Shown here one piece after another: positions 4,847 to 61,450 of a stretch of 64,000 bases of DNA. A model generated the notes under the pieces. That model did not search any database. It saw only the letters and a program-made list of their open reading frames with translations, and was not told where the DNA came from. The DNA lies in the IMG/VR virus record IMGVR_UViG_3300009514_000001, positions 1 to 64,000 of that record. One strand, written 5' to 3'. Position 1 is the first letter of the stretch. The number at the start of each line of letters is the position of its first letter. The translations under genes were made by a program, and so were the position numbers. The DNA is from a virus.

Positions 4847-4851
4847 CCCCC

Positions 4852-31080: not shown

Positions 31081-31140
31081 TTATGTCTGTCGTCCAAAGG
31101 GCATACAAGGTTGAGATCGACCCCAATAACAAGCAACGCA

Positions 31141-31166
31141 CCGCTCTGCGGTGCCGCTCTGCGGTG
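31141..31166 (+). repeat. Tandem duplication, 2 x 13 bp, in tnpB
   Basis: CCGCTCTGCGGTG twice in a row. Not a multiple of three, so it shifts the tnpB frame. Confidence 0.95.
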
Positions 31167-32254
31167 CCACGCTGGTTGTGCCAGGTGGGCATTCAATTGG
31201 GGACTCTCCCGTAAAATCGAGTCCTACAAGGAGACGAGGAAGTCCCCGAACAACATCGAGCTTCATCGGGAGTTGAATAAGCTCAAGAGGGCCGACCCAG
31301 AGAACGGTGGAATTCCCTGGATGTACAACGTCTCGAAGTGCGCACCACAGGAAGCTCTCCGAGACCTGGATAAAGCGTTCAAGAGCTTCTTCAGACGCTG
31401 TAAGAAGGGGGCCAAGAGAAAAGGTTTCCCTCGGTTTAAATCTCGTCGGAAGAGTCCCCTCAAATTTCGCCTCACAGGGGCTATCAGGACTTCCGAAGAC
31501 GGCAAACAGATCAAACTCCCCAACTTGGGGTGGATCCGGCTCAAAGAGACCGGGTACCTCCCAGGACCCGAGAGGAAAGAAGTGAAAATCCAGTCGGCAT
31601 CACTCTCTGAGCGAGCCGGAAGGTGGTTCGTTTCTCTGACCTGTAAAGTAGAGGTTCCTGATACCGCACCACGACCGAGAACCAAAGTCGTTGGGGTGGA
31701 TGTTGGAATCAAATCTCTTGCGGTGACGAGCGACGGACAGGTGTTCGAGAATCCGAAAGCCCTGGCTCGTGTGCAACGCCGCTTGCGGCGAGCACAAAAG
31801 GCACTGGCTAGGAAACAGAAGGGCAGTAGGAATCGGGAGAAGGCACGTAGGAGAGTTGCGAAGCTCTACTATCGGGTGTCGTGCATCCGACAAGATGCTC
31901 TACACAAAGCCACCAGTGAGATCGTGAAGGGCGCAGATGTAGTCTGCATCGAGTCCCTGAACGTCTCTGGGATGTTGAAGAACAGGAAACTCTCTCGTGC
32001 TCTTTCTGACGCATCCCTGTCGGAGTTCTTGCGTCAGTTGGCCTACAAGGCTGAGTGGGCCGGTGTTGAGGTGGTAGAGGCCGACAGGTTCTACCCATCG
32101 AGCAAGACCTGTTCTGGGTGTGGTCACGTCAAACAGGACTTGTCTTTGTCTGATCGTACCTACTCTTGTGGGGAGTGTGGTTTGGTGATGGACCGAGACC
32201 TGAATGCCGCAATCAATTTGAAAAACTTGGCCCCGAGTTCCGGGGTGTCAGCCT

Positions 32255-32346
32255 GTGGAGAGAATGTAAGACCCCAGTCGGAGCTTGCTCGGGTTGGGGC
32301 TATCTCTGCGAAACAGGAACCGAACACAGGAGCTACACCATGTTAG
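32255..32346 (+). ncRNA. Candidate omega RNA at the tnpB 3-prime end
   Basis: TnpB guides are made from the element's right end. Here GTAAGACC, GAGCTTGCTC and CAGGAACCGAACA recur in the same order in the tnpB remnant at about 58070-58130, as expected for a conserved RNA scaffold overlapping the coding end. The guide boundary cannot be placed without an alignment. Confidence 0.4.
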
Positions 32347-33225: not shown

Positions 33226-33265
33226 CAGGGTGGAAGCAAACCACCCTTGTCGAGAGGACAAACCG

Positions 33266-35011
33266 ATGGCCAAGGCCGACAAACTCAAGCGAAAGCTCCT
33301 CCCCCCCAACCACACTGCTGCCGACTTCCAGTACAGGGGTCGGCCATCGACTGATGTGGGCGACTTCGGCGAGGACGTGGGTATCGCTGACGGAGCTTGC
33401 GTCAACCAGTTCGGCGATGACGGCTCCGACAAGGGCCGCAACAACTGCAAGTACTACCACGGCGGCGTCGTCCAGAGTACCAAGGACAACTCCTGGTGGT
33501 GCTACTTCCAGTACGGACGCATCGACGACAGTGGCGAAAGCTGGACGGCCCCCTACTCGAACCCGGCGAAGGGTGGCGACTTCCGCGGCGGAGACTTCCA
33601 GTTCTACGGATGCGAGAGCGAGGCCCACGCGCGCAAAGAGTTCGCCGCCCAGATGAGGAAGAAGTCCACGAACCGCCTGGAGAGGAAAGACCTCGGCGGT
33701 GGCGTGAAGGTCTGGGTCTCGAAGACCGACAAGAACGGCAAGAGCAAGGATGGCTACATCATCCAGGCCTTGGCCACACGGACCCGAGGCCTCCCCGACG
33801 CCTACACCATCAAGGACGACACCGGAGTCACCATCAAGGACGACACCGGAGTCGCCGAGGCGAAGGCGAAGCCCAAGAAGAAGACCAAGCGAGCGTCTTC
33901 GGCCCCCAAGGTCCACCCCCAGGTCGTCAAGCTCGCCCAAGACCTCGTGGGTGGTACCAAGACCTTCGCCCGGGCTGCCGCGGCGGCCACGGGTGTCACG
34001 CCCACCCTGGCGGCCATCACCGAGGCTCGCGACGTCATCATCCCCCAGGCGCTCCAGCTCCTCGCCAAGATCGGAGATGACCTCGACGCCCAGCTCAACG
34101 ACAAGAACCTCCAAGGACTGTCCCGCTACATGGCCGGGCGCATCCCCGTCATCATCCCTCGTGGAGCCACTCAAGAGGACCGGGCCAAGATGCTGCTCCT
34201 CTCCAAAGACACCATCATGGAGCGCCAGCAGGACCTCGACGCGTTCGAGGCCGCCCTCAAGTCTGAGGACTTCGAGACCGAAGGGGACTCCCCGGTCGTC
34301 GACTACAACGCCATGCTCGGCGCCCTGGTCGACTGGATTGACCCCCAGAGCGAGTTGGGAAGGTGGTTGGAACCCACATTCCGGGCGATGTCGAACAATC
34401 GTCACTACAACAGTAGGGGACGTCTGGTCATCAAGAACATGTTCAAGGTGGTTCGGCCGGACAGGGACGCCCTTTTCGTGGCTGCGACCAAGAAAGTCGC
34501 TGCCAAATGTCGGGGAAGAGTCGACCTCAAGGCGCGTCTCCAGCCACCAGCCAGGCCCGATGTGTCGGACATCTCGGACGAATACGACCAGGCCAACGTG
34601 TTCCTGGGCATCCACGGAACCCGGGCTGTGAACATCCACCCCATCATGTCGACGAACCTGAGACTTCCAAAGTCTCTCAGAGGAGTCGTAATCACCGGCA
34701 GTGCCTTCGGATCGGGTATTTACGCAGCTTCCGACTGGAAAAAAAGCTATAATTATTGTGGGCTTAGCAGCTCCTACTACGGGGGTGGAGGTACGATTTC
34801 GGGCCGCGGGTTCTTCATGTTCCTCCAGGACATCATCATGGGCCAGGCATACAAGGCCCGATCCGTGGGTTCTTGGCAGACTCCTCCCAACGGGTGTGAC
34901 TCCATCGCGGCCTACCCGGACTTCATGAGGACGCTTCAGAACGACGAGCACATCATCTTCGACCCGTCGTATCAGCGTATCCGATACCTCATCGAAGGGG
35001 AGATTCACTAG
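33266..35011 (+). CDS. WGR-PARP ADP-ribosyltransferase, 581 aa
   Basis: C-terminal PARP catalytic domain (about 440-581) with the H-Y-E triad: H450 in G-I-H-G-T-R, Y486 in G-S-G-I-Y-A-A-S and E561 in N-D-E-H-I-I-F, plus the S-x-x-Y-C of K-K-S-Y-N-Y-C. The N-terminal region (about 45-130: Y-H-G-G-V-V-Q, Y-G-R-I-D, F-A-A-Q-M-R-K-K) resembles a WGR domain that binds nucleic acid ends. A helical regulatory-like region lies between. A glutamate in the triad is typical of polymer-forming PARPs. Start at 33266 with GAGAGGA. A 24-bp in-frame duplication is at 33805-33852. Confidence 0.85.
   Translation: MAKADKLKRKLLPPNHTAADFQYRGRPSTDVGDFGEDVGIADGACVNQFGDDGSDKGRNNCKYYHGGVVQSTKDNSWWCYFQYGRIDDSGESWTAPYSNPAKGGDFRGGDFQFYGCESEAHARKEFAAQMRKKSTNRLERKDLGGGVKVWVSKTDKNGKSKDGYIIQALATRTRGLPDAYTIKDDTGVTIKDDTGVAEAKAKPKKKTKRASSAPKVHPQVVKLAQDLVGGTKTFARAAAAATGVTPTLAAITEARDVIIPQALQLLAKIGDDLDAQLNDKNLQGLSRYMAGRIPVIIPRGATQEDRAKMLLLSKDTIMERQQDLDAFEAALKSEDFETEGDSPVVDYNAMLGALVDWIDPQSELGRWLEPTFRAMSNNRHYNSRGRLVIKNMFKVVRPDRDALFVAATKKVAAKCRGRVDLKARLQPPARPDVSDISDEYDQANVFLGIHGTRAVNIHPIMSTNLRLPKSLRGVVITGSAFGSGIYAASDWKKSYNYCGLSSSYYGGGGTISGRGFFMFLQDIIMGQAYKARSVGSWQTPPNGCDSIAAYPDFMRTLQNDEHIIFDPSYQRIRYLIEGEIH
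33805..33852 (+). repeat. Tandem duplication, 2 x 24 bp, in PARP gene
   Basis: ACCATCAAGGACGACACCGG and four further bases, repeated exactly; doubles eight residues (T-I-K-D-D-T-G-V) in the linker. Confidence 0.95.
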
Positions 35012-37886: not shown

Positions 37887-37937
37887 CCAGCCCTCCTCAA
37901 GTCTCTACAGAGTACCAGGCGATAGAGAGACAAGTGG

Positions 37938-37965
37938 GTCCACTTTCGGACCCGGTGTCGTATGG
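37938..37965 (+). promoter_or_regulatory. Phage-type promoter of the cas operon, GTCCAC-N16-GTATGG
   Basis: GTCCAC 37938-37943 and GTATGG 37960-37965 with 16-base spacing. Start of transcription near 37972 rules out the in-frame GTG at 37934 as the cas3 start and favours the GTG at 37988. Puts CRISPR interference under the phage's own promoter class. Confidence 0.7.
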
Positions 37966-37987
37966 AGGGCTACGAGGTGAGGAAAGA

Positions 37988-39985
37988 GTGAGAGACATCT
38001 ACGCCAGGCCGGGACAGCTTCTTTACGACCACCTGCTGGGTGTCTGTCGAAAAGCTCTCCCAAAGGCAGCTCGACTCAATCTTGAAAAGCCCCTGTTTGA
38101 CCTGATTGTGAGCCACGATTTAGGTAAGGCTTCATTTCTCTGGCAGCAAGGATTGCAGAGAGGAGACAGACCCCTGCCTGACCACGTCTCCGCAGGGGCT
38201 AAGGTACTTCTCGACAGAGGGAGTCCGCTATTCCTGTTGTCGCATAGCCACCATGGTAGTCTAGGCAGTCTCGCGGCTTGTCGCCCCCAAGTAGGGGAGT
38301 TCTCAGTACCCGAAGAAGTTCTGATTTGGCTCTCTGATAACGCACCGAGGCTGGCTAGTGAAGTCCACCAAGAGCTGGGCCTGGGTGTTGAGTTCGGCAG
38401 GGAGAACAACCCCTGGTGGCTGGAAGACACCCCAGAACAGGTCTCTCTTCGTCTACGGCTCCTCTTCTCCCTTCTTGGAGACATGGACATCCAAGATGCT
38501 AGGGAGTTCGACACAGGAGAACGCCAGAATCATCACGGAGTGCAGGAGCTTCACCAGAGGTTCTTGGAGTGGGTCGACAACAGTCCCTCAACTGTCGTCT
38601 CCGAAGCCCTAGCGTTCGCCCGGCACCCCCCCGGTAGGTACCGCATCACATCCCCCCACCCCATCGGCAAGACGACTGCGGGGCTGGGATACGGACTGGC
38701 CCATGCGAGGGCGCACGACCTGGACAGGGTCGTTCTGGTCGCCCCCTACCTTTCCCACCTACACCATCTGGAGGAGCGTCTCACAGACCTCTTCGGAGAG
38801 CGACTGGTCTCTAGTTCAGTTCTCCAGCACCACACCGGGATAGCCACTTCCGAGTTGTCTCCTTGGGCCAAGCCGCTCATCCTGACTACCTCGGCCCAGT
38901 TCTGGGGGACCCTCAACCATCACCATAAGATGGCCCTCCGCAACGTCCACTATCTCTCCCACAGTGTCGTCATCCTCGACGAGAACCAGGCTCTCACCTC
39001 TCGCCTTCACGACCACTATGAAAGCACCCTGAACCTGATGCGGGATGAGTGGGGGTGTTCGATTGTGCAGACAGGACAAACTATCCGTGCCCGCTCAAGA
39101 GAGATGCCAGCCCGCCTGTCGTCTTCCTCAGGGACAGATAATCGGTCGTCCACCCTACTAGGGGAGGTGGAGTGGTCTGCTGTTGCCTCACGGGCTAGTG
39201 AGTCGACCAGAGCAATGGTTGTCACCAACACCATCGCCGATGCTCTGGAGGTGGCCAGCCACATGCCGGAGGGAACTGTGTGCCTGACCAGTCGCCTCTG
39301 CTCGCGAGACCGACAGGACATTGGACACCGCCTCCGCCTCCGAACACAAGAGGGCCCCCTGAGAGTGGTTGCGACTCCCCTGACGGAGACAGACACCGGG
39401 ATGCTCTTCGGTCTCGTGTTGAGGGCCATGTGTGGAGCGGGGTCCCTGCTCCTTTCACGGGCACACCTCCTCCCCGGAGGGGAGATGGGCATCTTCACCT
39501 CGACACCCCCAAGGGCGGCTGGTCGGGATGCCGCTATTACCCAGAGGCTTCTCCAAGACCCCTGGCAGCTCACAGACTCGGACTGGCTGGCCGAGTACTA
39601 CGACCAAGTCTTAGCGACAGGAACCGTCAGCTCCGACCTCGTCAGAGCGGCCCATGAACTCGACTTCAGAGGAGCATCCAGAGCCTTCAGGCTCATCTCA
39701 GATAACAAGACCAACATCCTGCTCGTGAGACACCCCAACGTTGACATCCAAGATGAGATTGACTCCGTATTGGGAGGCCTGAGGTCCCCCTCACCAAGGA
39801 TACGGCGAAAAGCGCGTCGAGACGCCCTGAGATACTCCGTGCCCCTTTCTGAGTATGAGTTGAACTCTGCTAGGAACCAGGGCCTTATCGGAACCCTCGC
39901 CACACATCTGGAATGTGACCTCGAAACACCCATCTGGCTAGGGGGCTACGACGACACAAGTGGAGGACTTCGTTTTTTCTCTTGA
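37988..39985 (+). CDS. cas3: Cas3 nuclease-helicase, type I-C, helicase motifs degenerate, 665 aa
   Basis: HD nuclease domain looks intact: Y-D-H near residue 15, S-H-D-L-G-K-A, P-D-H-V-S-A-G-A and S-H-S-H-H-G. The helicase is odd. Walker A is T-S-P-H-P-I-G-K-T (normally A-P-T-G-x-G-K-T), motif II I-L-D-E-N-Q-A-L is acceptable, but motif V is T-E-T-D-T-G-M (expected E-A-G-V-D-x-D) and the motif VI arginines (Q-A-A-G-R-x-N-R) are replaced by L-L-L-S-R-A. So target nicking may persist while ATP-driven unwinding is doubtful. GTG start at 37988, set by the promoter. Confidence 0.88.
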   Translation: MRDIYARPGQLLYDHLLGVCRKALPKAARLNLEKPLFDLIVSHDLGKASFLWQQGLQRGDRPLPDHVSAGAKVLLDRGSPLFLLSHSHHGSLGSLAACRPQVGEFSVPEEVLIWLSDNAPRLASEVHQELGLGVEFGRENNPWWLEDTPEQVSLRLRLLFSLLGDMDIQDAREFDTGERQNHHGVQELHQRFLEWVDNSPSTVVSEALAFARHPPGRYRITSPHPIGKTTAGLGYGLAHARAHDLDRVVLVAPYLSHLHHLEERLTDLFGERLVSSSVLQHHTGIATSELSPWAKPLILTTSAQFWGTLNHHHKMALRNVHYLSHSVVILDENQALTSRLHDHYESTLNLMRDEWGCSIVQTGQTIRARSREMPARLSSSSGTDNRSSTLLGEVEWSAVASRASESTRAMVVTNTIADALEVASHMPEGTVCLTSRLCSRDRQDIGHRLRLRTQEGPLRVVATPLTETDTGMLFGLVLRAMCGAGSLLLSRAHLLPGGEMGIFTSTPPRAAGRDAAITQRLLQDPWQLTDSDWLAEYYDQVLATGTVSSDLVRAAHELDFRGASRAFRLISDNKTNILLVRHPNVDIQDEIDSVLGGLRSPSPRIRRKARRDALRYSVPLSEYELNSARNQGLIGTLATHLECDLETPIWLGGYDDTSGGLRFFS

Positions 39986-40079
39986 CGAGAGTCAGAGAAA
40001 GCCCTTGCCTTTCCGACCACGGGAACACCCGGGGAACTATTAACAACACAATGTGGTTGAGGCGAAAATTGAGGCGAAA

Positions 40080-40754
40080 ATGAACCTGAGAAAACTACTC
40101 AGCGACCCTGTGAGGGTCAAGGTCACAGGCAGAAGAGGCCTCTTTTCGCGCCATGACTTTCCTACGGAGAGGATTTCATACCCTATCATGACCCCCAGTG
40201 CCGCCCGGGGGCTGCTCAGAAGGATATACGGAAAACCTCAGCATTTCTGGGTGATACAGGCGGTTCAGGTGCTGAATCCAATTCGGTTCGAGAACATCAC
40301 CTACAACGAGGTGAGACTCCCGAAGAGACCTGTTCCTGTGAATGTTAGCAATACATCTCAGGTCCGTATTCAGAGGTCTGCCCAGGTTCTCATAGAGCCC
40401 TCCTACATCATCGAGGCACGGGTTCTGGTGCATCCCTATGCGTACAGGAACGGAGGCATGCCCACCAAGCACACGGAACAGCTCAAGAGACGTCTGAAGA
40501 GGGGCCAGTTCTTCCTCCAACCCGATCTCGGCAAGAGCGAGTTTTTCGCTGATTGTTCTTTGCCGGACGGCAGCGAGAGTCCCCTTCCAGTGAGCCAGGA
40601 CCTCGGCCGTATCCCTCTCTTCGTCGATCAGAGCGAAGGGCGCTCGCACTACTTCCAGGCCTTCATGAAGCGGGGTGTGGTGCAGGTGCCGCAGAAGCAG
40701 CTTCTGGACGTCCTGGAGCCGAAACTCCTCGACCAAGACCCTTGGAGAACGTGA
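40080..40754 (+). CDS. cas5: Cas5 (Cas5c/d), crRNA-processing subunit, 224 aa
   Basis: Type I-C Cas5: V-K-V-T-G-R-R-G-L-F-S-R-H-D-F-P, then I-M-T-P-S-A-A-R-G-L-L-R-R-I-Y and the V-L-N-P-I-R-F-E-N-I-T-Y-N-E-V block. In I-C systems Cas5 cuts the pre-crRNA at the base of the repeat hairpin and caps the 5-prime handle. ATG at 40080 is chosen because a 12-bp duplication (40057-40080) places GAGG six bases upstream. Its TGA overlaps the cas8c ATG. Confidence 0.92.
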   Translation: MNLRKLLSDPVRVKVTGRRGLFSRHDFPTERISYPIMTPSAARGLLRRIYGKPQHFWVIQAVQVLNPIRFENITYNEVRLPKRPVPVNVSNTSQVRIQRSAQVLIEPSYIIEARVLVHPYAYRNGGMPTKHTEQLKRRLKRGQFFLQPDLGKSEFFADCSLPDGSESPLPVSQDLGRIPLFVDQSEGRSHYFQAFMKRGVVQVPQKQLLDVLEPKLLDQDPWRT

Positions 40755-42655
40755 TGTACAATCTCATCCGAGAACTCACCAAAGTACGGGTGCCCTCGAC
40801 GTTCCCGGGCCCTGGGTATCTCCTCAGAACTGCCAACGTGTTCTGTCACCTAGACAGATCGGGATTCTCTCACTGGGAGGTCAAGAAAGAGGGTGAGCTT
40901 TACATGCTCCCCGACTCTGGACGTACAGGGACGGGTACAAAGGTCGGCCTGTGGGGTGACCAGGTGAGGGTCTACACCGGGAACAAGGAGACCAAGAAGG
41001 CCCGGGCCAAGAGAGAGGCCGCGAACAAGGCGAAGGGGAGAGACAACTCCAACGACTTGGCGGTTGCAATGGCCAAAGCTGTGAGCGAGGCCCACAATCG
41101 CATCAAGGGCCGCGCCGGAGAGGACACCAGGCTGAGTCTCGTCTACACATTTCTCACGGACGAGAGTCAGCGTCAGCGGGCTTACGATGCCCTTCCGGAT
41201 GACGTGAACCCGAACAGTCCTGTCGTCCTTGTTGTCGAGGGGAGGACGATGGTCCGTCCCCAGGAAGGTCCCTGGGCATCTCCGAACATCGACCTCTACG
41301 AGGAAGAGGGCAAACGCATTGCCTGGGTAGGCAATCTCAAGACCGTCGAGGGGGTGTGTAGCGTCACAGGCGAAAAGGACCTCATCCCCGACATCCACCC
41401 TGGGTCCGTGAAGATTGGTGACTCCAGAGCCCAGCTACTTTCCGGAAACATCCCCCAACACTTCCCCAATCCCAAAGGCAAGCTGTGGAGCACTGGCATC
41501 GGCCTGGAGGCTGCCCAGCAGTACACGACCGCCCTTGACTACCTGACGACGGACAAGAACCACCACCTGACGGCCCTCCACACCACGACCAAGAACCCCT
41601 CCTCCAGCGACTTCCAGAAGATAGTCTGGTGGGGCCGGGACGAGGACGCCTCCCTTCCTATCTACCAGAGCATTATCCGCCCCTCTGCGGAAGTCCGCAC
41701 GGCTATCGAGGAAGCCCTTGAGGGGAGGGGAGGTCCGGTCAACCTCGAACACCCCTTCAACACACTCGTCCTAGGTACCCACGTCAGACGCCTGGTGGTG
41801 CTCAGCATGTCGAGCGATACCCTCCTGGGTGTCTACCAGAGTGCCAGTCGATGGCTGAGAATGACCGAGACTCTCAGCGTTGATGAAAGGGGCGCCCTTG
41901 CCCGGAAAAACCACTCTCTCAAGGCCCTGTCGAGGGCCCTTCTGCCCCGCTCAAAGGAGGGTGAGTGGTTCGGTAAGTGCTCTCCCTACACGACGCAGGA
42001 CATCCTGAGGTCCATGCTCTTTCGGGAGCCCCTCACCAAGAGGCTCATCCACGGCCTGATGACTCGTCTCGAACGTGACCAACAGCTAACCACCGCCCGC
42101 ACAGCCCTCTTGCAGGTCTACCTACACCAACGAGGAATCATGGCTGACAAGACCCAAGCCCGAACCCCCATCGACCCGGAACTGGGAGGGTACGTCGGAT
42201 ACAATCTCGGACGTCTCCTCCAAGAGGCGACGGCCATCCAAAAGGCGGCAATCCGAGTCAATCGGGACTTGAGTTCCACCCTCTCATCCTACGCCAAGAA
42301 CCACCCCCGACGGCTGTACGACAAAACCACTCAGAAGGCGGACAATCACTTGACCTCTCTCAGGACCAAAGGGGACTACGGACTGGCCTCAATGTTCGAG
42401 AAGCGCCTGGGGGCCATCATCGGACGCATCTCTATGGTGCCGAAACAACTTCCCGAGGAGCAACTCGCACTGTTTCGCAAGGGACTGCGGGATCAGTATC
42501 TGGCCTCCCAGGCCGCCAACAAAAGACGATCTCAACTTAACAACGAGGACATCGCCAAGGACGAACTCGCATACCAGAAAGCGCAGGTCGACCTGACTCT
42601 AGGTCTCATTGACCCGGAGGACTGCCCTGCACCACCCACCACCGACAAGGAGTGA
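40754..42655 (+). CDS. cas8c: Cas8c (Csd1), large Cascade subunit, 633 aa
   Basis: ATGA overlap with cas5. Pattern of the Csd1 family: N-terminal Y-N-L-I-R-E-L, C-S-V-T-G-E-K-D (the C-x-V-T-G motif), T-D-K-N-H-H-L-T, F-Q-K-I-V-W-W and the helical C-terminus. It recognises the PAM and anchors the crRNA 5-prime end. Length is normal for the family. The last 171 codons probably also give Cas11 from an internal start. Confidence 0.92.
   Translation: MYNLIRELTKVRVPSTFPGPGYLLRTANVFCHLDRSGFSHWEVKKEGELYMLPDSGRTGTGTKVGLWGDQVRVYTGNKETKKARAKREAANKAKGRDNSNDLAVAMAKAVSEAHNRIKGRAGEDTRLSLVYTFLTDESQRQRAYDALPDDVNPNSPVVLVVEGRTMVRPQEGPWASPNIDLYEEEGKRIAWVGNLKTVEGVCSVTGEKDLIPDIHPGSVKIGDSRAQLLSGNIPQHFPNPKGKLWSTGIGLEAAQQYTTALDYLTTDKNHHLTALHTTTKNPSSSDFQKIVWWGRDEDASLPIYQSIIRPSAEVRTAIEEALEGRGGPVNLEHPFNTLVLGTHVRRLVVLSMSSDTLLGVYQSASRWLRMTETLSVDERGALARKNHSLKALSRALLPRSKEGEWFGKCSPYTTQDILRSMLFREPLTKRLIHGLMTRLERDQQLTTARTALLQVYLHQRGIMADKTQARTPIDPELGGYVGYNLGRLLQEATAIQKAAIRVNRDLSSTLSSYAKNHPRRLYDKTTQKADNHLTSLRTKGDYGLASMFEKRLGAIIGRISMVPKQLPEEQLALFRKGLRDQYLASQAANKRRSQLNNEDIAKDELAYQKAQVDLTLGLIDPEDCPAPPTTDKE
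42140..42655 (+). CDS. cas11: Internal Cas11c start within cas8c, 171 aa
   Basis: In type I-C the small subunit is made from an internal start in cas8c. Here CGAGGAATC precedes an in-frame ATG at 42140 (M-A-D-K-T-Q-A-R) by an ideal distance, and the product is the helical C-terminal domain. Somewhat longer than typical Cas11c (about 120-140), so a later start is possible. Confidence 0.6.
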   Translation: MADKTQARTPIDPELGGYVGYNLGRLLQEATAIQKAAIRVNRDLSSTLSSYAKNHPRRLYDKTTQKADNHLTSLRTKGDYGLASMFEKRLGAIIGRISMVPKQLPEEQLALFRKGLRDQYLASQAANKRRSQLNNEDIAKDELAYQKAQVDLTLGLIDPEDCPAPPTTDKE

Positions 42656-42659
42656 AAGA

Positions 42660-43613
42660 ATGGACGTCAAGTGTATCAACCCAAAGACCCGCCACGATTT
42701 GCTAATCACCTTCAGCGTCACCCGAGGCAACCCCAACGGAGATCCGGATGCCGGAGGAGCGCCCCGAGAAACCCAGGATGGCTATGGCATCGTCACCGGT
42801 GAGAGCATCAAGCGCTTGGTACGGGATGCCGCGGAAGAGGTCTTCGAACAGAAGATTTACATCCGGTCCGGACCGCCCCTAGAGGAGGCTCTGTTGAAGG
42901 CCGTCGAGCGAGCCTACAACGGAGACTCCTCCGAAGCTCCCCGTGACAAGAAAGGCAACCTCCTGGTGGCCCAGGTACCAAAGGACAAAATCCAGGCCAT
43001 CCTCGACGAACTGAGATCGTACTTCGACAACCGCATGTTCGGAGCCGTTTTCGCCAGTCAGAAAGTCCCTGTCGGACGATTCCGAGGACCCGTAGCTATC
43101 GGAGATGCCCGGTCCTTCGATGAGATCGTAGTCCGAGAAAATCGCCTCACTCGGGTCGTCTCCGCCAAGTCCGATGAGGGCAAGGACCGAACCGGCCAGG
43201 GCACCTTCGCGGAGCGCTACGCCGTCGACTTCGGCTTCTACGAAAGCTTCGGCAGCTTCAGCCCCCACGGCTCTGGCAAGCACGTCTCCGAGGAGGACCT
43301 CAAGGTGCTCTTCCAGTCTCTCGTCACGGGGTTCCAAGAAAGCGCCTCCGCCCGTCGTGGGGGCTCCTACCAGGTTCACCGCATCTACGTGTTCACGCAC
43401 GACAACGCCCTGGGTAACGCCTCCCAGCACGATCTCCGCAAAGTCGTCAAGGTGACCAAGCGGAAAGACGTGGATAGTCCCCTCTCCCTCGACGACTACC
43501 TCGTCGAAGTGAACCGAGGTGCCATCCCCAAAGGAGTTCACCTGAGCATCATCGACAACAGCAACGTCCTGGACCCGCAGGCCTGGTACGTCGACAGCTC
43601 CCGTCCTCGATAG
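42660..43613 (+). CDS. cas7: Cas7 (Csd2), Cascade backbone subunit, 317 aa
   Basis: ATG at 42660 with AAGGAG, four bases after the cas8c stop. The Csd2 opening R-H-D-L-L-I-T-F-S-V-T-R-G-N-P-N-G-D-P is unmistakable, with D-G-Y-G-I-V-T and N-R-M-F-G-A-V-F and the C-terminal Q-A-W-Y-V-D. Several copies coat the crRNA. No cas4, cas1 or cas2 follows; a hairpin and the array come next. Confidence 0.93.
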   Translation: MDVKCINPKTRHDLLITFSVTRGNPNGDPDAGGAPRETQDGYGIVTGESIKRLVRDAAEEVFEQKIYIRSGPPLEEALLKAVERAYNGDSSEAPRDKKGNLLVAQVPKDKIQAILDELRSYFDNRMFGAVFASQKVPVGRFRGPVAIGDARSFDEIVVRENRLTRVVSAKSDEGKDRTGQGTFAERYAVDFGFYESFGSFSPHGSGKHVSEEDLKVLFQSLVTGFQESASARRGGSYQVHRIYVFTHDNALGNASQHDLRKVVKVTKRKDVDSPLSLDDYLVEVNRGAIPKGVHLSIIDNSNVLDPQAWYVDSSRPR

Positions 43614-43664: not shown

Positions 43665-43789
43665 ATAATGAAATCAATAGGTTGGATGCACTTTTGAGAG
43701 CCTCCCATCTTGTTCTTTGATAAGTGAATTAGGGGTGCTCGAAAACAGTACTCCAACTACCTAAGAACACTAGCTTTTGGGCTAGTGCG
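43665..43789 (+). promoter_or_regulatory. CRISPR leader, AT-rich
   Basis: AT-rich 125 bases upstream of the first repeat, on the side of the array whose repeats are perfect, hence the leader. Contains the second copy of TTAGGGGTGCTCGAA (43729-43742). No protein frame. Confidence 0.6.
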
Positions 43790-45467
43790 GTCGTCTTCTC
43801 GAAAGAGGAGACGGGAGATTTCAACGTGAGAAAGCTGAGGAGGTTCTGGAAGCATGGAGCGTCGTCTTCTCGAAAGAGGAGACGGGAGATTTCAACGAGG
43901 TGGGCGTAGACTCCGGGGGACTCGCCTTCAGTCGTCTTCTCGAAAGAGGAGACGGGAGATTTCAACGAGTTCGATGGGGACCGGCTTAAAGGAATCCTGA
44001 GCAGGTCGTCTTCTCGAAAGAGGAGACGGGAGATTTCAACGCCGAGAAGTACCCGGTGTAGTCGTAGCCATGGAACAGTCGTCTTCTCGAAAGAGGAGAC
44101 GGGAGATTTCAACGAGTGTGTAGTGGGCTGCCCCGCTACGGATTACGGGTCGTCTTCTCGAAAGAGGAGACGGGAGATTTCAACGATGATGCCTGCGGTG
44201 ATGTAGGGGCCGTCTTTCCGGGTCGTCTTCTCGAAAGAGGAGACGGGAGATTTCAACCTAGGATAGGGAAACGGGTTCAGCCGAAGACGCACGTCGTCTT
44301 CTCGAAAGAGGAGACGGGAGATTTCAACGTTGAAGAGAAGACCAGGAGAGACAGAGAGGCCACGTCGTCTTCTCGAAAGAGGAGACGGGAGATTTCAACA
44401 ACGTCGACACCAGTCTCTTCTCGCCCTTCTTGAGAGGTCGTCTTCTCGAAAGAGGAGACGGGAGATTTCAACTGATTCTGTCGGACACGACTGTCCTCGA
44501 CGCACTGAGTCGTCTTCTCGAAAGAGGAGACGGGAGATTTCAACGTCTTCAGGAGAGCTGGAGCCGACCCCACCCGACCCCACCTGAGCCCGTCGTCTTC
44601 TCGAAAGAGGAGACGGGAGATTTCAACATGGTCAGGGTCTCGACGGGGAGGTGATACGAGGGCGGTCGTCTTCTCGAAAGAGGAGACGGGAGATTTCAAC
44701 CCGAAGAGATCGTCGGAGGCGAATCCGCCACCCACGAGTCGTCTTCTCGAAAGAGGAAGATTTCAACTATCCGAGGTTAGAACAGGACAGTGAAGGTGTC
44801 GCCTGAGAGCTGAACTCGTGTCGTCTTCTCGAAAGAGGAGACGGGAGATTTCAACAGGGCCTGGCTACCCCCAGGAGACTTCTGGGCGGGCGTCGTCTTC
44901 TCGAAAGAGGAGACGGGAGATTTCAACTCACTCTCGTGGTCCACATCCAACCTCGGGGCTCCTGTCGTCTTCTCGAAAGAGGAGACGGGAGATTTCAACG
45001 ATGAAGAGCCGAAGCCGCGCCAGCGCCCGAGAAGCGCGTCGTCTTCTCGAAAGAGGAGACGGGAGATTTCAACGGAGGGACAGCGTGTTTCTTCTTCGGC
45101 TTGGCTTCCTGTCGTCTTCTCGAAAGAGGAGACGGGAGATTTCAACCGGAGCAGATGCTACGCAGGGCGGAGACTGCCCGCGGTCGTCTTCTCGAAAGAG
45201 GAGACGGGAGATTTCAACGGACTACGAGCGCCGCTATCCTGGCACCACGCACCCCGTCGTCTTCTCGAAAGAGGAGACGGGAGATTTCAACAGGTGCGGT
45301 CGTCTTCTCGAAAGAGGAGACGGGAGATTTCAACAAAGACAGGGACACGGTCGTTCACACCTGGTGTCGTCTTCTCGAAAGAGGAGACGGGAGATTTCAA
45401 CGGCAATGTCGCCCGCTGTTAGCCCCCAGCGCAGCCAGTCGTCTTCTCGAAAGAGGAGACGGGAGAT
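43790..45467 (+). CRISPR. Type I-C CRISPR array, 24 repeats, 23 spacers
   Basis: 36-base repeat starting GTCGTCTTCTCGAAAGAGGA and ending GGGAGATTTCAAC. GTCTTCTC and GAGGAGAC form an 8-bp stem closed by a GAAA tetraloop. Spacers are mostly 34-38 bases. Exceptions: spacer 11 is 47 (internal 10-bp duplication), spacer 14 is 52, spacer 21 is only 7 (45292-45298), spacer 22 is 31. Repeat 14 (44738-44767) lacks GACGGG. The last repeat (45438-45467) loses its last six bases, marking the leader-distal end. The array is on the same strand as the cas genes. Confidence 0.97.
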
Positions 45468-48378: not shown

Positions 48379-48849
48379 ATGGACAGGCTGCACCACTACG
48401 GACGAGATGACTCCGGGGCTCTCTACGAGCTGGCGGTAATCTCTCGTCGTAGGGGTGACCGGGCGCCTTGGGGCGTCGCTGTCAGCCGTCTCGTCGTTCT
48501 TGAGCAGTGGAATCTGCTCGCCGATGCCTTTTTGGGGAGTCCACTTCCCTGGCTCCGGTCGTATTATCCAGTAACAGGGCGCTGTGCCTCCTCATGGAAA
48601 GTGGCAGCACGGTGCCTCCGGGCCCTAGAAGGCCCGGACTGGTGGCTCTGGCTCCAACAGCATTCACTGGACTCTTGCGTCGCCGGTATCCTACATGGCG
48701 ACGACCGGGACCTCAGCGAGGCTGTCAGGGCCGACTGGAACCGGCTTCTTGCCGAAGGCGTCAGCCAAAGGATTCTCGCCAAGGGCAAGAGAGGACCGGT
48801 TCTCTGGGTTCGAGTCCCAGTTCCTTCACTGGACACGAGGATGCGATGA
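48379..48849 (+). CDS. Hypothetical protein with an internal promoter, 156 aa
   Basis: ATG at 48379 (M-D-R-L-H-H-Y-G-R) directly after the DHH gene. Trp-rich centre (W-W-L-W-L-Q-Q-H). A promoter-pattern site (48539-48566) lies inside the frame and a GGCCCGG hairpin at about 48621-48642, so the second half may be constrained by other signals. Unknown function. Confidence 0.55.
   Translation: MDRLHHYGRDDSGALYELAVISRRRGDRAPWGVAVSRLVVLEQWNLLADAFLGSPLPWLRSYYPVTGRCASSWKVAARCLRALEGPDWWLWLQQHSLDSCVAGILHGDDRDLSEAVRADWNRLLAEGVSQRILAKGKRGPVLWVRVPVPSLDTRMR
48539..48566 (+). promoter_or_regulatory. Phage-type promoter, GTCCAC-N16-GTATTA, inside a gene
   Basis: Perfect consensus spacing: GTCCAC 48539-48544, GTATTA 48561-48566. 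It would transcribe the second half of the 48379 frame, the 48846 gene and the I-E-like mini-array at 49591. Confidence 0.65.
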
Positions 48850-49580
48850 AACACGTTCTGCCCGAAGACACGACCGAGAAAGAGTTCCCCCGCCAGTTGG
48901 CCGCCATCCTGGCGAAAGCCTCGGACGGTGACGAGATCGAGCTGCCGACCAATGAGCTGTGCCAGGTGGCCGCCGAGACCCTCAGGGAGGACTACCCCAA
49001 CAAGCAGAATATCCGCCTGATCAGCCAAGAACCAATTCCCGTGTTCCAAGCCCCGGGCGGCGGACCCATGGTGCTCATCGGACCACCGCCGTGGCTCCAG
49101 GGAGAGGGAGACAACGACACTCCCCTGGCCGGCTCACCTCTCAGAGACTACGACGCCTGGATTCAAAAGCTCCAGGAGGACGGCCGGGTCCCAAGCGAAG
49201 AGGACGTCCAGGAGTGGCGGGAAAGGGAGGCGAGCATCCGAGGCCACGAGACCTGGATGGCCGGCTGGTTCGACAGCATGATTCACGGGTTCATCATGGC
49301 GGGCAGGGAGGAAGGGACCAACGAGTTCCTCGACCGAACCCGCGTCCTTGTCCACCAGAGCGCCCTCGTTGTAGGACACCTGATGGAACTGGCTCGCCAG
49401 GCTGCCAACCGGGAGGAAGGAAAGGGACCCGAAGTCCTTCAGGAGCTTCGGGACCTGATGCGCGACGGTATCCGTTCGGGCATCTCGGACACCTCCAACT
49501 GCCAGTGCCCGAGCTGCGTTCAGCGACGCGAGGAAGAAGCCCGCGCCGCCGAAGCCGCTCTGGATGAGGATGGGGATTGA
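48846..49580 (+). CDS. Hypothetical acidic phage protein, 244 aa
   Basis: ATG at 48846 behind ACGAGGATGCG. Mostly helical; ends in C-Q-C-P-S-C-V-Q, a possible zinc knuckle, and an acidic tail. Function unknown. It is the last gene before the mini-array and on the same transcript if the promoter at 48539 is active. Confidence 0.65.
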   Translation: MKHVLPEDTTEKEFPRQLAAILAKASDGDEIELPTNELCQVAAETLREDYPNKQNIRLISQEPIPVFQAPGGGPMVLIGPPPWLQGEGDNDTPLAGSPLRDYDAWIQKLQEDGRVPSEEDVQEWREREASIRGHETWMAGWFDSMIHGFIMAGREEGTNEFLDRTRVLVHQSALVVGHLMELARQAANREEGKGPEVLQELRDLMRDGIRSGISDTSNCQCPSCVQRREEEARAAEAALDEDGD

Positions 49581-49590
49581 CAGGTTGTCG

Positions 49591-49735
49591 CAGAGTCCGC
49601 GCGAGCGGAGATGAGCCCGACCCCTGCTGCGGGACCGGTGGGATGCTCGCGCCTACCCCACATGCGTGGGGATGAGCCCGTACCCTGGTCTGATGCGAAG
49701 CCCGAGTCCGCTCCGCACACGCGGAGATGATCCCC
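49591..49735 (+). CRISPR. CRISPR-like mini-array with type I-E-like repeats
   Basis: Three diverged 29-base units end in GATGAGCCCG, GATGAGCCCG and GATGATCCCC: 49591-49619, 49652-49680 and about 49707-49735. The first two are exactly 61 bases apart, the period of type I-E arrays (29 + 32). Unit 2, with CCCCAC-ATGC-GTGGGG-ATGAGCC, is very close to known I-E repeats. Units 1 and 3 replace the stem bases on both sides (TCCGC/GCGGA, CTCCGC/GCGGAG), so the hairpin is kept while the sequence drifts. No I-E cas genes are in the window. It could be a mini-array, an RNA anti-CRISPR that mimics host repeats, or another hairpin element. Confidence 0.6.
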
Positions 49736-49737: not shown

Positions 49738-50766
49738 CTAGAGGTCGCCGAAGATTTGGCCCCACCAGGGAGCGATATCCCACTTGGTCTTCACCACATG
49801 GTGGTGGCCGATGACACCGCGGAACGTGCTGGCTCCGCCTTTGCCCGTGAGAGCCTCACGGGGGATGACCCCGTGGTAGGGCTCGCCCGTCTCCTCCAGG
49901 CCGTCCTTGCCCCTGGGGATGCGGAACGGGATGCCGAGCGCGGCACAGAGGTCCTCTGTCAGCTCCCTGGCCGCCTTGGCCAGTCGGGGCTCCAGGGTGA
50001 CGATCTTGTCTCGACCCCGAGGATTGGGGTTGTCGACCAGCTCGACGTTCCACCCCTTCTTCTTGAGCTTCTTGAGCCACTTCTCCGTCGGCTGCTGACA
50101 GATGTCCAGACCGACGGACCGGCTGTTGGCCCCCGCCGCGTGCCAGGCCCGGTGGATGGTGTCTAGGAACTGGTAGAAGTAGACCTGGTCCTCCGCGACC
50201 TGCAAGTCCAGGCCGCCGTGGGAGGACACGTTGCGCTTGTCCGAGACGATGTTGCCCTTCTTGTCGAACTTGGCGTTCTCGAAGACGTTGAACAGGGACT
50301 GGGCTGAAAAGGCGCCCCAGTGCCAGACGATGTAGTCGATGCCCTGACCCAGCTTACGGCCCTCGTTGTAGTCCTTCTCCCGGTGCAGGTCGAGGCCGCC
50401 CCCATCATTGAAGTTGATGAACTGGTAGCTGCGGCCCTCGGGAAGGGCGATCTCCTGTCCGTCGTGAATCAGACGGTTCACCCACGGACCCACTTGTTTG
50501 AGGTGGTCGCCGTAGTTGTCCTTGATGGCCCTCCAGGTCCCGTTACCGAGTTTGCCGTCCCAGTCCTCCTCGTCCTCGAACACGGCCCTCTGGATGTCGT
50601 GGACGGCCTCGGCGAACGCGAGACTACTCGGGTCCTGGGCAAGGTCTGGAAAGGCCTCCAGAGCCGCAAGGGGCATCTTGTCGTAGAAGTTCAGCTTGGC
50701 TTCGGCGCGCTCGTTGAAGTCGGCGGCCTTCTTCGGGTCGTACCCGAATTCCATCAGGTCACTCAT
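49738..50766 (-). CDS. N-acetylmuramoyl-L-alanine amidase (endolysin), 342 aa
   Basis: Amidase_2/PGRP-type fold: I-V-W-H-W-G, S-S-H-G-G-L-D-L-Q, H-R-A-W-H-A-A-G-A-N and the C-terminal G-V-I-G-H-H-H-V-V-K-T-K-W-D supply the zinc histidines and catalytic region. Residues about 50-95 (A-V-H-D-I-Q-R-A-V, D-G-K-L-G-N-G-T-W) match a peptidoglycan-binding module. Cuts the amide between muramic acid and the peptide at lysis or entry. The start at 50766 (M-S-D-L-M-E-F-G-Y) has GAGGGTGAGAG upstream. Confidence 0.88.
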   Translation of the reverse strand: MSDLMEFGYDPKKAADFNERAEAKLNFYDKMPLAALEAFPDLAQDPSSLAFAEAVHDIQRAVFEDEEDWDGKLGNGTWRAIKDNYGDHLKQVGPWVNRLIHDGQEIALPEGRSYQFINFNDGGGLDLHREKDYNEGRKLGQGIDYIVWHWGAFSAQSLFNVFENAKFDKKGNIVSDKRNVSSHGGLDLQVAEDQVYFYQFLDTIHRAWHAAGANSRSVGLDICQQPTEKWLKKLKKKGWNVELVDNPNPRGRDKIVTLEPRLAKAARELTEDLCAALGIPFRIPRGKDGLEETGEPYHGVIPREALTGKGGASTFRGVIGHHHVVKTKWDIAPWWGQIFGDL

Positions 50767-50771
50767 CTCTC

Positions 50772-51272
50772 TCACCCTCGTTGGAGTTCTCGGAGGCTCT
50801 TCAGACGGTACTCGTCGAAGAGTCTCCATACGGGATCGACATAGGGGCGGACGAGAACCCTCTCCGCCTCCTCACGAGTTTCTACTCCTGGCTTGACTCT
50901 CTGCCTGGCCATGAAATAGAAGCTATAGGCAACCTCCGGACTAGACTGACACCAGACAACGACCGGCAACCCTTCGAGCCGAATGTCGTCGGTGTCGGGA
51001 ACCCGGAATAGGGCTCTCGCCGTGGCTGCTACCTCAGCCGAACTGTAGTGCTTAGGTCTCTCCTCCTCGTAGAGGTCAAAGAGAGGACGCCAGACACCCT
51101 CCTCGTAGGGTGACGCCAGATAGTTCGCCCCATGGGCAAGCCAGAAGGTGTAGCGGCCGTCCTTGACGAAGGCGTCGACCTTGGTCTTTGACAGTATACC
51201 CTTCCGAGGAGGTCTCCGTGACCGGACCCGGTCCTTGCGCTTCCTCTGTTTCTTGCGCTTCTGTCTGCCCAT
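50772..51272 (-). CDS. Basic-headed hypothetical protein, 166 aa
   Basis: First 25 residues are almost all Lys/Arg (G-R-Q-K-R-K-K-Q-R-K-R-K), then an alpha/beta domain with T-F-W-L-A-H-G-A-N-Y and V-V-V-W-C-Q-S. Six bases upstream of the amidase, so probably one late operon. Function unknown. Confidence 0.65.
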   Translation of the reverse strand: MGRQKRKKQRKRKDRVRSRRPPRKGILSKTKVDAFVKDGRYTFWLAHGANYLASPYEEGVWRPLFDLYEEERPKHYSSAEVAATARALFRVPDTDDIRLEGLPVVVWCQSSPEVAYSFYFMARQRVKPGVETREEAERVLVRPYVDPVWRLFDEYRLKSLRELQRG

Positions 51273-58217: not shown

Positions 58218-58958
58218 ATGACGAACGCCAACAGTACCCTCACAGCCGCCGCTCTTTCTGATGCAGACAACGATGCGCTCACCCGCATCATCACGCGCAA
58301 GAAAGGCATCTCCCGAGGCAAGGGAAACAACCGCAAAGTCTACGGAGACGACCTGGTCGAAGTCCTCGTGGTGACCGGCTTCGACTATCACGAGGTCGTC
58401 GAGCGCTCCTGGCAGGAGCTGAAGAACCTCGACATCAACGACGTCGTTGGAGAGCTTTCCGGACGTCTCGACGGCGAAGGCAACCCCATCACCCGAGACG
58501 ACATCGGCGCCGCGATGAAGGAGCTGCAAGCCAGCTTCTCGGCCAGCCTCGACGGCCGCAACCACGCCTCGACAGAGGGTAACTTCGAGACCCTGGAGGT
58601 CGACGGACAGAAGGTTCGAACAGTCAAGGTCTACAAGGGCCCGAAGACGGGGCAGAAGCGGGCCACCGAGGGTCTGGCACCGGGGACCATCTACATCCAC
58701 GGCCTCAAACTCTCAGAGAAGGTCCTGGAGCCAGCAGCCAATGGGCCCAAGCCCAAGAGCAATTCCTCGGCGAAAACCATCGCCAAGCGGTTCGTTCGTG
58801 GTAAGCTCTCGGTGGGTTCCTACGTGAGCTACGAGCTGCCTCCCGAAGGCAAGCCGTTCATCGTTCGTCCAGGAGGGACGACCCCGTTCCATTCGGACGG
58901 CAGTCGCATCCGGTTCCGCAACGCCACCGTCGAAACCCTCTTCGGTATTGCAGGGTGA
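58218..58958 (+). CDS. Hypothetical phage protein, 246 aa
   Basis: ATG at 58218 behind AAGGAG. N-terminal helices (D-A-D-N-D-A-L-T-R-I-I-T-R-K-K-G), C-terminal beta-rich part (S-V-G-S-Y-V-S-Y-E-L). Has its own promoter and operator, so it is probably tightly controlled. No family recognised. Confidence 0.7.
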   Translation: MTNANSTLTAAALSDADNDALTRIITRKKGISRGKGNNRKVYGDDLVEVLVVTGFDYHEVVERSWQELKNLDINDVVGELSGRLDGEGNPITRDDIGAAMKELQASFSASLDGRNHASTEGNFETLEVDGQKVRTVKVYKGPKTGQKRATEGLAPGTIYIHGLKLSEKVLEPAANGPKPKSNSSAKTIAKRFVRGKLSVGSYVSYELPPEGKPFIVRPGGTTPFHSDGSRIRFRNATVETLFGIAG

Positions 58959-58960
58959 GT

Positions 58961-59089
58961 ACGACCCCGCATGAGCGGGGATGTTCCCAAACGGGAACAG
59001 GTCATTGACCGCTATTGACCTCCTCCGCGAGCACGGAGATTCCCGGTCATTGACCGCTATTGACCTCCTCCGCGAGCACGGAGATTCCC
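58961..59089 (+). CRISPR. Second CRISPR-like mini-array with type I-E-like repeats
   Basis: Unit a (58961-58989) has CCCCGC-ATGA-GCGGGG-ATGTTCCC, the classic I-E repeat shape. Units b and c (stems at 59023-59038 and 59068-59083) have CTCCGC-GAGC-ACGGAG-ATTCCC with one mismatch. Units b and c are identical because a 45-bp stretch (59000-59044) is duplicated (59045-59089). Stem-to-stem spacing is 58 then 45, so less regular than 49591-49735. Lies between two genes on one strand. Confidence 0.5.
59000..59089 (+). repeat. Tandem duplication, 2 x 45 bp
   Basis: Exact copies beginning GGTCATTGACCGCTATTGAC; each contains one I-E-like hairpin unit. Confidence 0.95.
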
Positions 59090-59099
59090 AAAGGAGCAC

Positions 59100-59633: not shown

Positions 59634-60746
59634 GTCTCCGAAGAGGTCGAGTATGCCGCCCTCGGAGGGCGCCGCGGAACGTTCTTCGTTGAGTTGGAAG
59701 AGTCGGTCGAGTAGTTCATCCTCGACTGGTCGTGTCCAGCATAGCTCGGAACGTCGAGGTCGTCCCACCCGTAGCTTCTGAGGACCTCCATCTCTTCGTG
59801 GAGCTGTTGAAGCGGGTAGTTCGCCGGCCTTGATAGTGTTGTAGAGCTTGATAGTGTTGTAGAGCTTCGTCAGGACCTGGTTCCTACGTCCTGAATGTGG
59901 ACGGATTCACGCTGGCTCCGGAAGAGCGTGACGCCCTTATCGACAAGGACCCGAGGAACGCCCAAAGAATCTTCCCCTACATCGGAGGAAAAGAGGTCAA
60001 TAGCTCACCGACTCAAGACTTCCATCGATACATCATCAACTTCGGCCAGATGTCGCTGGAAGAGGCCGAACAGTGGTCAGACCTGGTTGAGCGGCTGAGA
60101 AGACTCGTCAAACCGGAGAGAGATAAGCTCAAAAGAGACAATTACCGACTACTCTGGTGGAGGTTTGGAGAGCCCCAAGTAGGCCTCTACCGCGCCCTCT
60201 CCGGACTACATCGTTGTTTGGTTACGGCTGCGACTTCGAAGCATGTGATGTTCTCGTTTCAGCCGGCGGGGAGGGTGTTCGGTCACGTCCTCTACGTGTT
60301 CCCTTTGGAGTCGTGGACGGCCTTCGCGGTGCTCCAGTCTCGGGTCCACGAGTACTGGGCTCGCATCATGGGCTCTTCTCTTCAAGGAACTTCCCGCTAT
60401 ACGGCGGAGACCTGCTTTCGAACCTTCCCCTTTCCTCGTGAGGACCCCAAAGAGGTCATCCTCTCGGAAGGCATCGGACAGCGGCTCTATGCCGCCCGAG
60501 CCGAGTGGATGACCTCGAATCAGAAACGAAACTCAGACCCTTGTTGGCCCCCAACGGGAGGGGGTCCGGGCGCTCCGGAGCCCGACGTAGACGAGAGTTC
60601 AGCGCGGCCGTCACTGGGTCCGGGCGCTCCGGAGCCCGACGTAGACGAGAGTTCAGCGCGGCCGTCACTGCGGCCGTCACTGGGTCCGGGCGCTCCGGAG
60701 CCCGACGTAGACGAGAGTTCAGCGCGGCCGTCACTGCGGCCGTCAC
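59634..60746 (-). pseudogene. Eco57I/MmeI-like methyltransferase C-terminal gene, copy A, internally inverted
   Basis: GTG at 60746 overlaps the dTMP kinase stop and begins M-T-A-A...L-N-S-R-L-R-R-A-P-E-R-P-D-P, triplicated by a 54-bp repeat, then L-G-A-N-K-G-L-S-F. The next 650 bp (about 59881-60530) encode the specificity region on the opposite strand (G-S-Y-V-L-N-V-D-G-F-T-L to Y-A-A-R-A-E-W-M-T-S-N-Q-K). The tail (L-T-K-L-Y-N-T-I to G-G-I-L-D-L-F-G-D) is back on the minus strand with an 18-bp duplication (59829-59864) and two frameshifts. Re-inverting the middle restores the family order. Confidence 0.7.
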
Positions 60747-60747
60747 T
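60562..60747 (-). repeat. Three 54-bp tandem repeats with 12-bp sub-repeats
   Basis: Copies at 60562-60615, 60616-60669 and 60682-60735, starting GGGTCCGGGCGCTCCGGAGC. The second and third are each followed by an extra GCGGCCGTCACT. All lengths are multiples of three, so the minus-strand frame repeats T-A-A-L-N-S-R-L-R-R-A. Confidence 0.95.
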
Positions 60748-61450
60748 GAAGGGTCTGTCGAGATTCCGCCAGGTCACTCCTGGTCCTAACCACCCATTCC
60801 ACCACTTCGGCAACCAGCTCGTCCTGGGTCTTCGTGGCATCCAGAATGACCCTCCCTTTGCGGGGAGTGTTCGAGTAGGGGCCTTCGACCAGGTCGAGAT
60901 AGGCCTGGCGGTACTGGGCGAGCTGGTCAGGAGTCTCGAATGAATCCGCTTTTCGACCGGCCTGGATGCGCTCGTAGGCCACCTCTGGAGCCAGGTCCAT
61001 GACCAGGAGGAGGTCGGGAACTGGGCAAATCTGCGTGGCCTCGAACCAGATGCGCTGCCGCAGACCGTATATCCCTCCTTGGGCCGGCATGCGCAACGCC
61101 TGATAGACGATGGTGCTGTGGTAGTAGCGGTCCGTGACGATGACTTCGCCGCGCTCCAGGGCCGGACGGATGACCCGACGGGCGTGCTCGGCACGGTCGA
61201 GCATGAACAGCCAGTACTCCTCCAAGGGGGAGTAGCGCTCGTCCCTGCTCTCACAGAGAAGCCTGCCGAACTTCCCGTCGCGGGTCGGCTCCCTTGTCTG
61301 GGATGCTGGAAGGCCCTTTTCCCGGAGGGCGGGGACCAGGTTGTCCACGAGGGTGCTCTTGCCCGCGCCGTCCATACCCTCAACCACGACCAACATGCCG
61401 TGGCCCACGACACCGGCAGGAACCGGCTGACCCGTCTTCATCATCGCCAT
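60743..61450 (-). CDS. tmk: dTMP kinase, 235 aa
   Basis: Walker A V-V-V-E-G-M-D-G-A-G-K-S-T (residues about 21-33), T-R-E-P-T-R-D-G, the D-R-Y motif in V-T-D-R-Y-Y-H-S-T, and V-M-D-L-A-P-E-V-A-Y. Makes dTDP from dTMP. Slightly longer than bacterial Tmk (about 210). Start at 61450 chosen for GGAGAGAAG upstream. Its stop overlaps the damaged methyltransferase gene start. Confidence 0.9.
   Translation of the reverse strand: MAMMKTGQPVPAGVVGHGMLVVVEGMDGAGKSTLVDNLVPALREKGLPASQTREPTRDGKFGRLLCESRDERYSPLEEYWLFMLDRAEHARRVIRPALERGEVIVTDRYYHSTIVYQALRMPAQGGIYGLRQRIWFEATQICPVPDLLLVMDLAPEVAYERIQAGRKADSFETPDQLAQYRQAYLDLVEGPYSNTPRKGRVILDATKTQDELVAEVVEWVVRTRSDLAESRQTLQ

Follow-up and report, generated by a model that had tools for sequence, protein, structure and literature searches.

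Phage intergenic repeat mimics inhibit type I-E and other CRISPR systems, and one such mimic, RacrIC1, lies 11 nt after an acr gene on the same transcript (PMC10651486). The rules of SRUFinder discard candidates that have similar neighbours within 100 bp (PMC10651486). Ectopic CRISPR repeats are typically degenerate, with the first repeat the most diverged (PMC9458426), and this degeneracy resists recombination (PMC9458426). The native type I-E crRNA of E. coli is 61 nt long (PMC4288178). The locus described here shares features with these systems and with the mini-arrays carried by viruses, and is compared with each of them below.

The window analysed is the first 64 kb (64,000 nucleotides) of IMG/VR record IMGVR_UViG_3300009514_000001, which is 222,005 bases long. 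The record is marked as a huge tailed phage by baseplate and tail proteins, an NAD-dependent DNA ligase, thymidylate synthase, GroES and a type I-C locus. A 96-bp direct repeat occupies record positions 1-96 and 221910-222005, which means that either the genome is circular or the assembly broke at this repeat. Because part of this end sequence recurs inside the record, inverted (- strand) at ~65.2 kb, completeness of the record is uncertain. The sequence-only reading had held that the genome's own CRISPR system is of type I-C, and this was borne out by cas3, cas5c, cas8c, cas7c and an array at 37.9-45.46 kb:

37934-43613, + strand: the phage's own type I-C effector genes cas3, cas5c, cas8c and cas7c
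43746-45460 (ends approximate), + strand: the phage's own I-C array, with repeat GTCGTCTTCTCGAAAGAGGAGACGGGAGATTTCAAC

The I-C repeat differs from the I-E-like units described below, and a search for it in IMG/VR gave no match. At window positions 45300-45460 the distal end of the I-C array is degenerate, with one very short spacer and one repeat that lacks its 3' end. Neither Cas6e nor Cas7e, the I-E Cas6 and Cas7, was detected in the record, which may be incomplete. Other features of the phage include a Volactin-family actin-like protein (PF25216) with an intein-like insertion (record ~188443-190557, - strand), which has relatives on two IMG/VR contigs; a D12 DNA methyltransferase gene inside an IS607-like element with a MerR-resolvase and TnpB (window 29549-32346); and an apparent ADP-ribosylation eraser/writer pair, made up of an ADP-ribosylglycohydrolase (window 13615-14658) and a WGR-PARP protein (33230-35011).

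Downstream of the I-C array, three units span 145 nt and fill the 157-nt intergenic gap between two convergent genes:

48846-49580, + strand: upstream co-directional gene, 244 aa, of no family; its stop lies 9 nt before U1
49590-49618, + strand: U1, a degenerate I-E repeat-like unit GCAGAGTCCGCGCGAGCGGAGATGAGCCC, with 5/6 stem pairs and a canonical 3' half GCGGAGATGAGCCC
49619-49650, + strand: spacer S1, 32 nt, GACCCCTGCTGCGGGACCGGTGGGATGCTCGC, encoding DPCCGTGGML in frame
49651-49679, + strand: U2, an I-E repeat-like unit GCCTACCCCACATGCGTGGGGATGAGCCC, with stem CCCCAC/GTGGGG and handle ATGAGCCC
49680-49705, + strand: spacer S2, 26 nt, one 6-nt Cas7 step short of 32
49706-49734, + strand: U3, a nearly canonical actinobacterial I-E repeat GTCCGCTCCGCACACGCGGAGATGATCCC
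49738-50829, - strand: convergent amidase/endolysin-like gene (PF01510; phrog endolysin/amidase), which closes the intergenic space

The three 29-nt units that the sequence-only reading had claimed are present on the + strand, its coordinates being one base too high, and the first two are separated by exactly the 61 nt that it gave. U2 and U3 are 55 nt apart, i.e. the spacer between them is 26 nt, six below 32. In each unit two 6-nt arms flank a tetraloop and are followed by an 8-nt tail, ATGA(G/T)CCC; this is the layout of an I-E repeat and its 5' handle. The features of an I-E repeat (29 nt, 6-bp stem, tetraloop, 8-nt handle) are all seen in U2 and U3 and are weak in U1, whose stem has an outer G-G mismatch. 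The folding of U1 is weaker, and it may pair elsewhere within the whole RNA. The near-identity at a 61-nt period of I-E arrays was not found here: the intervals are 61 and 55 nt, and U2 and U3 share 19/29 positions.

A scan of 84,980 species genomes with the core pattern of U3 yielded 13 matching stretches, four of which were real arrays with a 61-nt period (two Bifidobacterium pullorum contigs and two Brevibacterium contigs, with Cas6e in both genomes). The repeat of the B. pullorum I-E array, GTCTGCTCCGCACACGCGGAGATGATCCC, is 28/29 identical to U3. The best authentic matches of the other units were 23/29 for both U1 and U2 and 25/29 (Arcanobacterium haemolyticum) for U4, a fourth candidate unit described below. 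U1 reached its 23/29 with a Brevibacterium I-E repeat variant, and its 14-nt 3' half is identical to the Brevibacterium repeat. An earlier suggestion had placed the second unit close to the I-E consensus; the unit nearest to a real repeat is U3 (28/29), not U2 (23/29).

Further authentic repeats were taken from Cas6e loci of Actinomycetota and Chloroflexota, and a covariance model built from 16 authentic I-E repeats (R1) was run over the whole 222-kb record. U3 scored 37.2 bits (E 1e-10), U2 29.5 bits (E 9e-8), U4, at 58960, 21.6 bits (E 8e-5) and U1 14.8 bits (E 0.025). Because 3 of the 16 repeats had been reached via their likeness to the units, a second, non-circular model (R2) was built without them; its top three hits in the record were U3 (7e-5), U2 (1e-4) and U4 (1e-3), and U1 was not listed over the 222 kb. 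U3 and U2 therefore rank first in the whole record with both models, and a position matrix agrees for these two units. Since R2 drops U1, we accept this unit mainly on its 61-nt register and canonical 3' half. An Rfam scan of the region returned nothing.

The sequence-only reading had also stated that the stems change on both sides while staying paired, and a comparison of U2 with U3 upheld this. The two units differ at 10 positions, four of them in compensatory stem pairs; two pairs (7/20 and 10/17) are fully compensated and none is broken. The chance that four random stem changes leave all pairs intact is ~1.2%. These changes bear on a sober rival explanation, a fragment of a host I-E array that was acquired by the phage and is decaying without function. 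Divergent repeats and one short spacer would suit such a relic, and host arrays often end in degenerate repeats. A relic would also agree with the failure to find a leader or promoter and with the lack, in our searches, of a relative that has kept the locus. The sole clear relative found was LR745208.1, a 485-kb uncultured phage with a baseplate protein 41.5% identical, in which a scan with the repeat core pattern gave a single chance-like match. Relatives of the amidase, both upstream genes and the Cas7 were sought in IMG/VR or phages and none was usable; none of the searches for relatives turned up a related phage carrying the I-E-like locus. Decay does not, however, predict differences between U2 and U3 that are compensated without a broken pair, the retention of both handles, an S1 coding motif that is still intact or three units that fill a 157-nt gap, and we consider a relic rather unlikely.

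The position of the locus between convergent genes raises a second alternative, that the units are plain intergenic hairpins acting as bidirectional terminators. Between its genes, this phage has many hairpins that lack a U-tract. No U-tract follows any unit, none of the units was scored as a terminator, and this alternative accounts neither for the conserved 8-nt handle nor for the I-E homology or the methylase spacer; it is disfavoured, and we give it hardly any weight. The same scan for terminators and promoters gave no terminator at the units, no leader and no clear promoter, and one weak promoter-like site.

The strongest evidence that the units form an array comes from S1. Its in-frame peptide DPCCGTGGML is motif I of N6-adenine DNA methylases (PF02384). 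When the whole locus was compared with plasmids by blastn, two matches covered almost exactly S1, both inside DNA methylase genes. A search with S1 only listed ten plasmid records, from Streptomyces, Acetobacter, Haloferax, Natronosalvus, Pseudomonas and Paracoccus, with the matching genes annotated as N-6 DNA methylase or class I SAM-dependent DNA methyltransferase. The best match, in Streptomyces longhuiensis, is 28/32; 3 of the 4 mismatches fall on the third base of a codon, and PF02384 is present in the gene product. The edges of the methylase match coincide with those of the spacer, and nothing outside S1 matches. No other DPxCG(T/S)G motif occurs in any frame of the record, and DPxCG(T/S)GG(M/F) had 0 occurrences in 60 Mb of sequence simulated from the phage composition. 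Because the motif is encoded, the match stops at the spacer edges and the motif is absent from the simulation, S1 is best read as a genuine spacer that was taken from a methylase gene. Its methylase motif and matching edges give it the character of a spacer derived from foreign DNA.

The search with the 32-base spacer that the sequence-only reading had proposed led to methylase genes, at best to a 28/32 match and not to an exact protospacer, which was not found in plasmid, IMG/VR, phage or actinobacterial genome searches. S1 with every sixth base left free had no match in IMG/VR, and a degenerate S1 pattern had none in 91 actinobacterial genomes. In the two nearest S1-matching genes the match is preceded by TAC, which is not a known I-E PAM. 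A 20-nt exact match of S1 in Erwinia phages was judged to be due to chance, since it ends inside the spacer and other positions are mismatched. No convincing match to a target was found for S2, and neither spacer gave a convincing match when compared with the phage itself, with cas loci and with the sequence upstream of cas3. When spacers of the retrieved I-E arrays were compared with the phage, only short chance matches were seen.

Because S1 encodes a methylase motif and the match is confined to the spacer, we regard the locus as a genuine, degenerate I-E mini-array and not as a set of terminators. The earlier proposal of a mini-array is in this respect well sustained: the repeats are homologous to those of I-E arrays, a 61-nt unit is present, and the spacer has matches in N6 DNA methylase genes that stay within its limits. 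Judged on these sequence features, the locus is very probably a type I-E mini-array.

A second I-E-like patch lies at 58957-59099:

58960-58988, + strand: U4, the fourth candidate I-E unit, 25/29 to the A. haemolyticum I-E array repeat
59000-59089, + strand: two exact 45-bp tandem copies, GGTCATTGACC...CTCCGCGAGCACGGAGATTCCC, with a weak I-E-like hairpin at the end of each copy (59023-59038 and 59068-59083)

U4 starts 1 nt past the stop of the gene at 58218-58958, and its handle can also pair into a second, 7-bp hairpin (TGTTCCC/GGGAACA). The tandem copies end just before the Shine-Dalgarno sequence of a NUDIX gene, and their hairpins scored only 6.5 bits with the covariance model. U4 is likely to be related to U1-U3; membership of the tandem copies among the I-E units is doubtful. 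The patch has no standard array geometry. An isolated protein with an MmeI-type target recognition domain is encoded nearby (window 59897-60943, + strand), and the record has no DPxCG(T/S)G methylase motif outside S1.

The main functional rival to a guide array is a Racr-like RNA decoy, an option that the sequence-only reading had also named, because CRISPR-Cas is inhibited by repeat mimics that lie directly after a gene. By analogy, the RNA of the units would bind host Cas6e and Cas7e and jam the assembly of I-E Cascade, the spacers being incidental. U1 and U4 lie 9 nt and 1 nt past stop codons, much like RacrIC1; the best-kept parts are the handle and stem, which Cas6e or Cascade would bind; and the geometry of the second patch also favours a decoy. 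U2 and U3 are intergenic repeat-like units as Racr elements are, but they are not solitary within 100 bp. A decoy would need neither a 32-nt methylase-coding spacer nor a 61-nt period, and the upstream genes match no known family, so a link to acr genes could not be made. We think a decoy, too, rather unlikely.

As for the host, the pattern of stem plus ATGA(G/T)CCC formed 61/62-nt arrays in 5/397 Actinomycetota, one being the chosen centre. It formed none in 399 Pseudomonadota or 301 Chloroflexota, where matches were single or scattered. Among the ~1,100 genomes sampled, repeats with an AUGAKCCC handle form arrays in Actinomycetota only, and this distribution points, short of proof, to an actinobacterial host. 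The best repeat matches, among them the 28/29 of U3 to an actinobacterial repeat, cannot fix the host alone because most of the sequence compared was actinobacterial. TnpB and ligase searches gave no pointer to the host.

Since no I-E Cas6 or Cas7 was found in the record, hijacking of a host I-E Cascade, as the sequence-only reading had proposed, would be the natural reading. Use of the locus as a guide for host Cascade is to us the best explanation and the one that suits the spacer best; we give it moderate confidence. S1 encodes a signature motif of DNA methylases, and therefore the phage probably borrows the host CRISPR machinery against a methylase gene. Because the stop codon of the gene at 48846-49580 sits 9 nt before U1, the array may be the 3' UTR of this gene, and it would then be transcribed from the + strand by read-through. 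Host Cas6e would cut at the 3' base of each stem, and the I-E architecture predicts two crRNAs, of 61 and 55 nt, that begin AUGAGCCC:

49611-49671, + strand: predicted mature crRNA 1, 61 nt (8-nt handle, 32-nt spacer and 21 nt)
49672-49726, + strand: predicted crRNA 2, 55 nt

The 55-nt product would correspond to 61 nt less one 6-nt Cas7 step. Once loaded onto host I-E Cascade, the S1 crRNA would guide the complex to the stretch that encodes motif I in a gene for an N6-adenine DNA methylase; this gene may be carried by a rival phage or plasmid or form part of a restriction-modification locus of the host. Host Cas3 might then cut the methylase gene, or Cascade might repress it. We suggest, as a tentative specific form of this model, that a heterologous I-E guide locus turns host Cascade on the N6-adenine methylase of a host restriction-modification system, and that its non-identical repeats resist recombination and escape array finders. 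The non-identity of the repeats counts against a guide function, being unlike classical viral mini-arrays.

A different use of host Cascade would follow the CreR/CreA systems, in which case a crRNA-like RNA would direct Cascade by partial pairing to repress the promoter of a host cas gene or a phage gene. The first unit is the most diverged (U1 23/29 with 5/6 pairs, against 28/29 for U3), and degenerate mini-arrays that partly match the cas3 promoter region lie upstream of cas3 in two actinobacterial I-E loci. In Ca. Corynebacterium gallistercoris (L016), a degenerate two-unit I-E mini-array at 2544-2620 (-) lies upstream of cas3 (2755), and its spacer TGAGAAGTGCGCGAATG matches the cas3 promoter region at 2702 (+) at 15/17 positions, after AAC; 0/2,000 shuffles were as good. 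In another actinobacterium (L111), three degenerate I-E units at 1095-1236 (+), with spacings of 52 and 61, lie upstream of cas3, and the first spacer matches the cas3 promoter region at 1325 (+) at 16/21 positions, after AAT (1/2,000 shuffles as good). From their sequences, both look like candidate CreR regulators of type I-E. For the phage locus, however, no convincing match of S1 or S2 was seen in the 24 actinobacterial regions upstream of cas3 that were sampled, nor in the phage, and S1 is a coding motif and not a promoter; regulation of this kind is quite improbable here. Degenerate I-E-like units were also seen in A. haemolyticum, whose genome has Cas6e; they lie at 5366-5540 (-) of locus L020 and adjoin a phage-type integrase (4057-5361), and form another ectopic repeat cluster borne by a mobile element.

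If the guide reading is true, one phage combines two CRISPR strategies, an I-C effector of its own and a cassette of guides for another's I-E effector, and the gene to which the spacer points, a DNA methylase, is a common restriction-modification component. Such loci may be systematically missed, because their repeats are too dissimilar for identity-based finders and too clustered for SRUFinder. A covariance model of authentic repeats does detect them.

Among the known systems, Racr and other solitary repeat units (PMC10651486) share with the locus the phage-borne intergenic repeat mimics that lie just after a gene and keep stem and handle; here, in contrast, three units stand in array register around a meaningful 32-nt spacer. 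The ectopic repeats of CreR/CreA (PMC9458426, PMC12737573) are likewise degenerate, non-identical and irregularly spaced, with the first the most diverged, but the present locus has no adjoining cognate cas operon, no promoter match was found, and its spacer reads as coding. Saccharomonospora phage PIS 136 (L010) has two unannotated I-E arrays, at 5939-6150 and 8779-8986, and Cas7e was not detected in it. This actinophage resembles the present case in the 61-nt spacing of its I-E repeats and in the lack of a detectable I-E Cas7, whereas its repeats are canonical, nearly identical and four per array. Its spacer at 8808-8839 has 13 nt in common with the reverse complement of S1. The virus-borne mini-arrays of Sulfolobales viruses (PMC6858448) and of huge phages with host-like repeats (PMC7162821) have in common with this locus one or two spacers, the lack of matching cas genes, repeats of bacterial-host type and a spacer with a recognisable foreign gene. 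They differ from it in three respects: here the repeats differ from one another at about one-third of positions, the array is of subtype I-E although the phage's own system is I-C, and the class of target recognised is a DNA methylase instead of a related virus. Non-identical repeats, a heterologous subtype beside the phage's own system and a methylase-derived spacer are thus what is new here among viral mini-arrays.
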